DNA from: Gammaproteobacteria bacterium
Lineage (GTDB): Bacteria > Pseudomonadota > Gammaproteobacteria > Steroidobacterales > Steroidobacteraceae
Direction: 5' to 3'
DNA: 64,000 bases
NCBI GenBank assembly: GCA_016874175.1
Contig: VGUP01000001.1
Location: 1 to 64,000, forward strand
Shown here: positions 54,568-63,911 of the stretch, piece by piece
How the letters are laid out: the number at the start of each line of letters is the position of its first letter
Position numbering within the stretch: position 1 is the stretch's first letter
Notes under the pieces: generated by a model
Told to the model about the DNA's origin: nothing
What the model saw: only the letters and a program-made list of their open reading frames with translations
Database searches by the model: none
Position numbers and translations under genes: made by a program

Positions 54568-55233
54568 CTAGACGCCCAACTTGCGTACCGTGCCCGCGGC
54601 ACCACCGACGATCACGACATCGGCCGTTCGCTGGGCGAACAGCCCGACCGTGACGACACCCGCGATATTGTTGATCGTGTTCTCTAGCGCTGGCGGATCG
54701 AGGATGCGCAGTCCGTGTACATCGAGAATCTGATTGCCGTTGTCGGTGAGTACGTTCTCGCGCCAGACGGGTTGTCCGCCGATTTTGATCAGTTGTCGCG
54801 CGACGTAGGAGCGCGCCATCGGAATGACTTCGACTGGCAGCGGGAAGCGCCCGAGCACATCGACCACTTTTGACTCATCGAGGATGCACACGAAGCGACG
54901 TGATGCGACTGCGATAATTTTTTCGCGGGTCAGCGCTGCCCCGCCGCCCTTGATCAGTCGGCGATGGGCGTCGGTCTCATCGGCACCATCGACGTAAAGC
55001 TGCAGGTCGCCGGTGCGATTGAGATCGAGCACCTCGATCCCGGCGGCGCGCAGCCGCGCGCTCGATGCCTCGGAACTCGACACGGCGCCGCGCAGACGAT
55101 TGCGACGCGCGGCGAGTTCATCGATGAAATGATTGACGGTCGAGCCGGTGCCGACACCGATCACCATATCGTCTTCAAGGTAAGAGAGTGCGGCACGCGC
55201 TGCGGCAAGCTTGCTATTCATCGCCTCGTTCAT
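54568..55233 (-). CDS. rpiA: Ribose-5-phosphate isomerase A
   Basis: RpiA interconverts ribose-5-P and ribulose-5-P. The 221 residues (E. coli 219) show [36 protein letters not shown] and [16 protein letters not shown], all active-site signatures. GGAG lies about 8 nt upstream of the ATG. It is downstream of the microprotein gene on the same strand. Confidence 0.96.
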
Positions 55234-55275: not shown

Positions 55276-55303
55276 GAAGATGCCCGCTTGCGCGGGCATC
55301 TTC
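55276..55303. terminator. 12-bp hairpin between the microprotein gene and rpiA
   Basis: GAAGATGCCCGC (55276-55287) and GCGGGCATCTTC (55292-55303) form a perfect stem with loop TTGC. On the minus strand it is followed by only three T residues, so it is at best a weak terminator. It is the third of three hairpins after the microprotein stop; the others are 55319-55348 (9-bp stem) and 55351-55365 (6-bp stem). Confidence 0.55.
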
Positions 55304-55365
55304 TTGCGTTTCAGAAGACGGCGGGTGTGACTTGCATCTCACCCGCCGAAGATTCCTGCGGAATC

Positions 55366-55416
55366 CTACTTCTTCTTAGCGGCTTTCTTATGCGCCTTCT
55401 TTTTGGCCTTAGCCAT
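55366..55416 (-). CDS. 16-residue lysine-rich microprotein, candidate
   Basis: The ORF ATG 55416 to TAG 55366 encodes MAKAKKKAHKKAAKKK (10 Lys, 4 Ala, 1 His after Met). It is too short for the ORF track. Support is strong for its size: GGAG sits exactly 7 nt before the ATG, a good sigma-70 promoter (TTGTTT-N16-TATACT) gives a 28-nt leader, and three hairpins follow the stop. It lies in a gap of 294 nt between an EVE gene and rpiA, same strand. The charge suggests nucleic-acid or ribosome binding, which is inference. Confidence 0.65.
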   Translation of the reverse strand: MAKAKKKAHKKAAKKK

Positions 55417-55450
55417 GATATGTCTCCAGTTACGGGTTAGTCCGAGGGTG

Positions 55451-55478
55451 AGTATATACACGCGTTTGCAAAAAACAA
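55451..55478 (-). promoter_or_regulatory. Promoter of the lysine-rich microprotein gene
   Basis: On the minus strand TTGTTT (55478-55473), a 16-nt spacer and TATACT (55456-55451); the alternative pair TTGCTT/TATATA with 18 nt overlaps it. Predicted start is near 55444. Confidence 0.65.
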
Positions 55479-55527
55479 GCAATAGGGTCCTCCGCTATCG
55501 CTCGAGTTGTGCATCCGGCGGTCCGCA

Positions 55528-55995
55528 TCAGTTCGCAAGCGACATGATGAAACGCCACTCCGCTGCACTCACCGGCGTGATCGATAGACGATTGCCGCGC
55601 TTCAAGATCAATAATTCACGAAGTTTTCCGGCCGCATGTTTGCGCAACTCGTCGAGCGAAATAACATAGGAAAAACGCTGCTCGAGACGCACATCGACCA
55701 TGTACCAGCGCGGTGCGGCAGCGGTGTGCGCAGGATCATGATGCGGATGTCGATGGTCGAGTGCGGTCGAGTCTGGGTAGCCGGCACGTACGACTTTCAT
55801 CACGCCGACGATGCCGGGTACCTCGCAACTCGAGTGATACATGAAGGCCAGATCGCCGACCGCGAACTGGTCACGCAGCATGTTACGTACCTGGAAATTG
55901 CGGACGCCGTCCCAGCAGGTGCCGCGTTTTGCGGCCTTGGCCAGATCGTCGATGCTGAACGTTCCGGGTTCGGTTTTCATCAGCCAATGATTCAT
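55528..55995 (-). CDS. EVE-domain protein
   Basis: EVE domains bind modified bases in DNA or RNA and resemble YTH/PUA folds. The 155 residues begin MNHWLMKTEPGTFSIDDLAK and include WDGVRNFQVRNMLRDQFAVGDLAFMYHSSCEVPGIVGVMKVV and the C-terminal LLILKRGNRLSITPVSAAEWRFIM, all typical. It overlaps the end of fau by 4 nt, a common arrangement in proteobacteria. Confidence 0.93.
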   Translation of the reverse strand: MNHWLMKTEPGTFSIDDLAKAAKRGTCWDGVRNFQVRNMLRDQFAVGDLAFMYHSSCEVPGIVGVMKVVRAGYPDSTALDHRHPHHDPAHTAAAPRWYMVDVRLEQRFSYVISLDELRKHAAGKLRELLILKRGNRLSITPVSAAEWRFIMSLAN

Positions 55996-56582
55996 GCGCT
56001 TTCTCCGCGGAAAAAACTAATGCCGCGTTCGGTGACGATGGCATCGAGGGGAACATCGGTGGGCAGCGTTTCGATGGTGCTTGTTTGCTGGCAGGAATGC
56101 GCAATACCGATCAATAGCGGCCCGCGCCAATGTCGGCGCCGCCGCCGAAAGGCCAGCGCGCGATCGTAGAAACCTGTGCCCATTCCCAGTCGATTGCCGC
56201 GGCGATCAAAACCGACTAGCGGTACGAAAATGATCTGCATCGCGGCGGCGGCTTTGCGGACTGCACCGCCGAATTCCACGATGCCCAGCCGATTGCGCAG
56301 CAGATTTGCGCCGGGTGGCGTGAAACTCAGCCGTCGTTGGCGCAGGCTCTCGATCCGCGGAAAAAAAAGGTCGCAACCCCGGCGGTACGCAAGTTCTATC
56401 AGCGGCGCCGTGTCGATTTCTTCGGGCATGGACATGAAGATCGCCACGCGACGCTCGGGCGCGAGCCAGTGCGTGCCGGCGATCCAGCGGGCGATTTGTC
56501 GCGAGCTGCGCGCGCGCTCTGCAGGGCTGAGTCCTGCGCGCGCCGCGCGCAGGGCCTTGCGCAGTATTCGGCGGTCGGACAC
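55992..56582 (-). CDS. fau: 5-formyltetrahydrofolate cyclo-ligase
   Basis: This enzyme converts 5-formyl-THF to 5,10-methenyl-THF. I chose GTG 56582 (VSDRRILRKALRAARAGLSP) because GGAG lies 7 nt upstream and the ORF-track start runs into 6S RNA. The 196 residues show FVPLVGFDRRGNRLGMGTGFYDRAL, the family motif. It lies downstream of 6S RNA, as in E. coli (zapA-ssrS-fau). Confidence 0.93.
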   Translation of the reverse strand: MSDRRILRKALRAARAGLSPAERARSSRQIARWIAGTHWLAPERRVAIFMSMPEEIDTAPLIELAYRRGCDLFFPRIESLRQRRLSFTPPGANLLRNRLGIVEFGGAVRKAAAAMQIIFVPLVGFDRRGNRLGMGTGFYDRALAFRRRRRHWRGPLLIGIAHSCQQTSTIETLPTDVPLDAIVTERGISFFRGESA

Positions 56583-56614
56583 GAAGACTCCGCGCGAAGG
56601 AATAATAGACGTCA

Positions 56615-56800
56615 CCCGCCTGTGCCGGTGTGAACCGTTGCTCTCGACACAGAGCAACAAGTGGGGCGGACTACGTCAGGTAAGGCTTTCCGCTCGAAGG
56701 CGGACTTGCACAGTGCTGACAGCAAGCCCTGATGCCCCGGGGCGTTCCAACTTAGGGTCGAGAGGTAACCCGATCCACTATCGAACACCGCAGGCGACGC
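56615..56800 (-). ncRNA. ssrS: 6S RNA
   Basis: 6S RNA mimics an open promoter and sequesters sigma-70 RNA polymerase. The minus-strand sequence has a closing stem between the 5' CCTGCGGTGT and the 3' ACACCGGCACAGG. The interior resembles the 6S bulge (GGGTTACC..., GCCTTACCTGACG). The about 186-nt span sits exactly between zapA and fau, the conserved locus. A TAGAGT hexamer (56812-56807) fits as its -10. Ends are estimated to a few nt. Confidence 0.85.
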
Positions 56801-63547: not shown

Positions 63548-63671
63548 CGACGAGTCTCCTGCTGTACCTGCTGTCGTGCTGCTATCGTGCGGTACACTCT
63601 CTCACGAGTCGCGTCTTTTCGCCCCGCGGGGCGCAAAGTGCTGCTATTATCGCTCCGTTCGCGCATTCCGA

Positions 63672-63911
63672 CCTTGCCGGAGAGATTCGCGACCTCGTGC
63701 TGGAGCCCTTTTGCAGGGGTCTCGCCTGGGTCGACGGACGCCGAAGGCGCAAGTTTCCGCCCGGAAACGCTCAGGCAAAAGAACGGCAGGTCGCAGGCGA
63801 GCTCTGGAGAGTGATCGTCCGGCAGTCCGAACGGGCAGTCGGCGGTCCGCCGAAGGGGAGCGGCCCGTCTGACGCAAGACTGGCCCGATCTCTCAGGTCC
63901 AAGGACAGAGG
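63672..63911 (+). ncRNA. Tandem glycine riboswitch (two aptamers)
   Basis: Aptamer I (about 63672-63790) closes with CCTTGCCG/CGGCAGG and holds the conserved GGAGAG, CGCCGAAGGCGCAAG and CTCAGGCAAAAG segments. After an 11-nt linker, aptamer II (about 63802-63911) closes with CTCTG/CAGAG and holds GGAGAG, GCCGAAGGGG and CTCAGGTCCAAGGACAG. This double arrangement is the classic glycine class and normally controls gcv genes. A terminator follows directly. Confidence 0.93.

Follow-up and report, generated by a model that had tools for sequence, protein, structure and literature searches.

Comparative sequence analysis identifies the lysine-rich open reading frame that lies between the genes for an EVE-domain protein and ribose-5-phosphate isomerase A (rpiA) as a genuine protein gene of only 16 codons, conserved throughout a bacterial family. 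It is housed in a gap of 294 bases, on the same strand as both neighbours, in the window, by which we mean the whole 64,000-nucleotide stretch of DNA that was analysed (Table 1). Genes for histone H1-like proteins have the same position, promoter and leader in other families of the order, and the window's protein is most likely a miniaturised orthologue of these proteins. We think it probable that the gene encodes an ultrashort polycationic H1-like protein, orthologous to the long forms minus their internal repeats, that binds mainly DNA. The frame, stop codon, Shine-Dalgarno sequence and three 3' hairpins described in the initial annotation were all recovered at the same positions; its tally of ten lysines among the 16 residues becomes nine lysines and one histidine, or ten basic residues.

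Table 1. Features of the lysine-rich gene, its neighbours and other elements of the window.
Feature	Position	Strand	Evidence and remarks
Lys-rich ORF, 16 codons + stop, MAKAKKKAHKKAAKKK	55416-55366	-	ATG at 55416; 51 nt with the stop, which ends at 55366; conserved in relatives; purifying selection by codon position
Shine-Dalgarno GGAG	55427-55424	-	7 nt before ATG; conserved in leader alignment; spacing 6-8 nt in 80 loci
5' leader motif CGGACTAACCCG	55433-55444	-	conserved in relatives (leader alignment, 80 pattern loci)
-10 region TATATACT	55451-55458	-	nearly invariant in 38 aligned relatives
-35-region element TTGCTTG	55476-55482	-	conserved in relatives; putative -35 element
First 3' hairpin, immediately past stop	55351-55365	-	fold; not universal in relatives
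Second 3' hairpin GGCGGGTG...CACCCGCC	55320-55347	-	stem sequence variable; missing in several relatives
Terminator-like hairpin GAAGATGCCCGC-GCAA-GCGGGCATCTTC	55276-55303	-	in 111/111 tails compared, which were selected by its core
Downstream neighbour, ribose-5-phosphate isomerase A (rpiA)	54568-55233	-	Pfam PF06026, E 5e-58
Upstream neighbour, EVE-domain protein	55528-55995	-	Pfam PF01878, E 9e-47
fau (5-formyltetrahydrofolate cyclo-ligase), in conserved synteny block	55992-56585	-	Pfam PF01812; synteny
6S RNA, upstream of fau	56609-56799	-	Rfam RF00013, 58.6 bits
Tandem glycine riboswitch aptamers	63667-63796, 63802-63910	+	

A conserved protein gene of 16 codons

We searched a 191-base DNA query against 98 relatives and found a match in the majority of genomes of the genus and family; when genera are compared, the match generally covers promoter to stop codon and goes no further. 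We also ran a pattern that is blind to the reading frame, containing only the -10 region, leader and Shine-Dalgarno sequence (TATATACTN{6,9}GGACTAACCN{4,11}GGAG), on named contigs. At all 80 loci recovered, an ATG lies 6-8 nt past the GGAG and opens a Lys/Ala-rich frame, far beyond what chance would give. These frames encode 14-26 aa, typically MAKAKKKAKKKAAKKK, barring four exceptions, two of which run off the contig end while the ends of the other two (L117, L132) are disturbed.

Among 31 distinct 16-aa ORFs, variable columns number 4, 5 and 14 of 15 at codon positions 1, 2 and 3, and the mean pairwise differences are 0.063, 0.038 and 0.338, respectively. For 12 distinct 17-aa ORFs the corresponding counts are 0, 0 and 8 of 16. 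Because third codon positions vary while first and second positions hardly do, selection acts on the protein. The products are low-complexity Lys/Ala sequences, with Lys averaging 59% in 167 ORFs of 12-30 aa. The proposal that this is a real microprotein with its own expression signals is upheld by relatives, in which promoter, Shine-Dalgarno sequence and third-position pattern are all conserved, and the gene looks independently expressed. It is a conserved protein gene shorter than the usual limits of gene callers, with unusually clear protein-level selection over 16 codons. A longer, 38-aa frame from an upstream in-frame TTG (55482) was rejected, as single-base indels between promoter and Shine-Dalgarno sequence break this frame in relatives; Pfam gave no match for the 38-aa reading.

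The promoter was originally read as TTGTTT-N16-TATACT. The block is indeed conserved in relatives, but it has only 8 of 12 consensus bases, and the assignment of the -35 element (TTGTTT, 55473-55478) is uncertain because relatives keep TTGCTTG together with the -10 region rather than TTGTTT as such. A sigma-70 scan that requires 9 consensus matches reported no promoter at the Lys-rich gene. The motif CGGACTAACCCG probably lies at the very 5' end of the transcript, judging from the predicted start site. We considered whether the leader could be a regulon-wide element and rejected this: CGGACTAACC occurs three times in the window's own genome, and the whole leader model matches once (E = 1.7e-21, with a model built partly from this genome).

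This leader model, which comprises the promoter and leader sequence only (84 positions, ending just past the ATG), matches 313 of 396 genomes of the window's order; of 369 genomes drawn from across the class, it matches members of this order only. The synteny zapA-6S-fau-EVE-[Lys-rich gene]-rpiA is conserved, with fau-(EVE)-gene-rpiA in most intact loci; the search proposed earlier for Lys/Ala ORFs between EVE or fau and rpiA does find them in relatives, at a conserved slot. The 6S RNA sits between zapA and fau, an arrangement also seen in other gammaproteobacteria. Three metagenome-assembled genome records that carry the order-specific leader, labelled Planktophila (L060), Janthinobacterium lividum (L095) and Klebsiella pneumoniae (L115), are probably mislabelled.

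Thirteen genomes of the window's family have no leader match. In 7 of these rpiA was not found, and in 4 (G274, G368, G371 and G372) rpiA is at the edge of a contig or close to it. In G322 a 21-aa ORF is present and the contig ends inside its leader. G019 (L285), from the same genus as the window, is the only real loss among the thirteen: here rpiA begins about 60 bases after EVE, and the gene is absent from an intact locus. In G078 (L291), from another family, fau-EVE is likewise followed directly by rpiA. Because both genomes have fau-EVE-rpiA without it, the Lys-rich gene is dispensable in some species.

The 3' hairpins

The leader, ORF and 3' region together fold with -70.8 kcal/mol (z = -6.6). 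We compared 111 distinct tails, chosen by a GCCCGC...GCGGGC core that is the same core as that of the terminator-like hairpin. In several of these (L039, L045, L047, L088 and L110) the stop codon and stem core are separated by only 22-23 nt, too little to accommodate the middle hairpins, with an intact ORF. Several species thus keep the ORF while lacking the middle hairpins, and the constant unit is the ORF plus the terminator. A simple terminator scan lists the terminator-like hairpin on the plus strand; the minus-strand T-run is weak. The initial annotation had held that hairpins kept in relatives without the ORF would point to a small RNA or leader, and we found the opposite: ORF and terminator are conserved, and the middle hairpins may be lacking.

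A length series of H1-like proteins at one locus

Other families of the order have H1-like Lys-rich proteins, mostly 82-201 aa long (for instance 159 aa in L192, 147 aa in L199, 195 aa in L183 and 201 aa in L217), in this slot and behind this promoter and leader. We found the leader before such long proteins in families f2-f7, f10, f11 and f15, with the gene behind fau-EVE or fau and before rpiA. These proteins, which occur order-wide, also share an MA-x-K start and a basic end with the window's protein. They differ from it in length and in composition: most are Arg- as well as Lys-rich, whereas the proteins of the window's family have 14-26 aa and almost no Arg. The long forms look like isolated linker-histone tails. 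At 16 aa, the window's protein falls short of the roughly 80 aa or more expected of a tail-type H1-like protein, and we therefore label it a miniaturised variant rather than a standard member. The peptide had been noted as undescribed-looking and without a named family; its position, promoter, leader and terminal sequence instead place it at the short end of an H1-like series that runs from 14 to 201 aa.

Length at this slot varies as expected for variable repeat number: the window's family has 14-26 aa, with 61 aa in one case (L023), and other families reach up to 201 aa. Family f15 mixes short and long forms (20-57 aa in g43 and g45; 82-174 aa in g39, g56, g60, g64, g67 and g71). Two species of genus g63, also of f15, have forms of 37 aa (L246:1475-1681) and 141 aa (L249:1569-1994) with similar starts; the 37-aa form may reflect a recent truncation or a mistake in assembly. 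A natural series from 14 to about 200 aa, under one promoter and in one slot, would allow a clean test of the tail length at which an H1-like protein can act on DNA or other polyanions in a bacterial cell. Pfam and NCBIfam gave no match for the 61-aa and long forms, and the bias correction of HMMER suppresses such sequences.

To place these changes on a tree, we used RpiA, Fau and ZapA from 99 genomes, with 60 aa as the cut-off between short and long. The state changes at least 7 times. The window's family is short throughout, save for the 61-aa form of L023 in one species of the same genus. Family f11, which is long, adjoins or falls inside the window's family (f1) on weakly supported branches, and the exact number of contractions is uncertain for this reason. 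The natural reading of the tree is contraction at least twice with occasional re-enlargement, and contraction with some re-expansion is what one expects of tandem Lys-rich repeats. Orthology is argued here from position and leader. Sequences of such low complexity are no proof of descent, and one gene could conceivably have replaced another in situ.

Of 29 EVE loci from other gammaproteobacteria, 8 have a long Lys-rich ORF shortly downstream of the EVE gene, most of these behind fau-EVE, which suggests that H1-like genes have an older association with the EVE neighbourhood. The leader model had no match at EVE-linked Lys-rich ORFs outside the order in the class draw of 369 genomes. Of the ORFs at these eight loci (L256, L265, L270, L271, L273, L278, L279 and L282), some have repeats that contain Gly or Pro.

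We considered whether a second, long H1-like gene compensates for the short form in the window's own genome, and rejected this, as a 159-aa query found none there, in a search limited by composition-biased scoring. A weak second leader-like match (E about 0.004) occurs in two f15 genomes (G123:C1:214833-214888 and G200:C65:122046-122101), where it could possibly mark a second gene with a similar promoter.

Proposed function and rival explanations

We propose that internal repeats were lost from a long H1-like ancestor to leave the 16-residue protein. The gene would be transcribed alone from its own promoter, with the terminator hairpin predicted to stop the transcript before rpiA. The peptide, about 60% of whose residues are basic, is expected to be disordered when free and to show no sequence specificity in binding polyanions, of which chromosomal DNA is the most likely target. 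By analogy with AlgP and Hc2, it would neutralise phosphate and aid compaction of the nucleoid, much as an isolated H1-type tail would; with 16 residues, its hold on DNA may be too weak for compaction at realistic concentrations.

The slot proteins resemble AlgP (AlgR3) of Pseudomonas aeruginosa in being gammaproteobacterial, Lys/Ala-rich, of low complexity and variable in repeat number. AlgP has H1-like C-terminal repeats, KPAA-repeat peptides bind DNA in vitro, and the protein associates with polyphosphate granules, whose spacing needs the H1-like tail (PMC9239181). It consists of a 124-aa helical N-terminal domain and a Pro-containing (KPAA) tail of about 195 aa, whereas the window's 16-mer has neither folded domain nor Pro, and an N-terminal domain of this type (about 124 aa, helical) is absent from all forms read at the Lys-rich slot. 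Hc2 (HctB) of Chlamydia trachomatis shares the likeness to H1, the Lys-rich repeats and a length polymorphism by repeat gain and loss; chlamydial Hc2 has 165-237 aa, a length set by the number of Lys-rich repeats (PMC2848022). It is ten times longer than the 16-mer and belongs to a different phylum, and we liken the two by composition and repeats, not by sequence or locus. The window's protein is also tiny and basic in the manner of the small ribosomal proteins bTHX and bS22. The sequences of these two differ from that of the window's protein and are non-repeat.

The same gene, with the same origin, could instead work on polyphosphate or on RNA and ribosomes, as a counter-ion (for instance in the polyphosphate granules of starvation) or an RNA-binding peptide. 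We regard this as unlikely, though worth serious consideration: AlgP sets a precedent as a well-studied H1-like gammaproteobacterial protein that sits on such granules and whose tail is needed for their spacing (PMC9239181), and a 16-mer suits charge neutralisation while having little room to bridge DNA. However, no polyphosphate-metabolism gene is found among the neighbours examined, and the sequence favours no one polyanion. The variable length and the loss of the gene in G019 could also suggest a decaying remnant of a long H1-like gene, transcribed but functionless. This is very unlikely, as promoter, Shine-Dalgarno sequence, start, terminal KKK-stop and amino-acid-level constraint are intact across many genera, the conservation at codon positions 1 and 2 already speaks against decay, and the gene has regained length in L023 (61 aa) and L231 (57 aa).

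Two further readings place the function in the RNA or in the act of translation. The leader equals the ORF in conservation, and the hairpins are strong (z = -6.6), as might be expected if the ORF were incidental or secondary in a small regulatory RNA or a structured element at the 3' end. This reading is largely refuted and retains very little probability: the ORFs show the third-position pattern, the middle hairpins are missing in L039, L045, L047 and others (22-23 nt from stop to stem core), and frames as long as 97-201 aa stand behind the same leader. Neither the codon positions nor the 111 tails revealed structure conserved independently of the ORF. Equally, a tiny Lys-rich ORF and a terminator upstream of rpiA on the same strand recall the leader peptides of attenuators, in which ribosome pausing at Lys codons would alter termination. 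Attenuator logic fails here, and we find the idea scarcely credible, since rpiA is no lysine-pathway gene and long proteins fill the same slot elsewhere. Where the distance from stop to terminator is 22 nt there is no space for an alternative antiterminator between the two; this distance is 22-23 nt in the short-tailed loci listed above. Moreover, some other gammaproteobacteria have a Lys-rich gene by EVE with no rpiA in the stretch examined.

Returning to the H1-like reading, it is possible, if a little short of an even chance in our estimation, that an H1-like chromatin protein has shrunk repeatedly to a functional peptide of 14-26 residues. Such a peptide would rank with the smallest known proteins dedicated to the nucleoid or to polyanions; it would be retained by hundreds of species and would probably escape gene callers on account of its length. 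If this is true, bare charge and abundance, rather than tail length, would suffice for function. We found no account of so short an H1-like protein in the open-access literature. Apart from this locus, two glycine riboswitch aptamers lie in tandem near the end of the window, the second of them barely at the gathering score.
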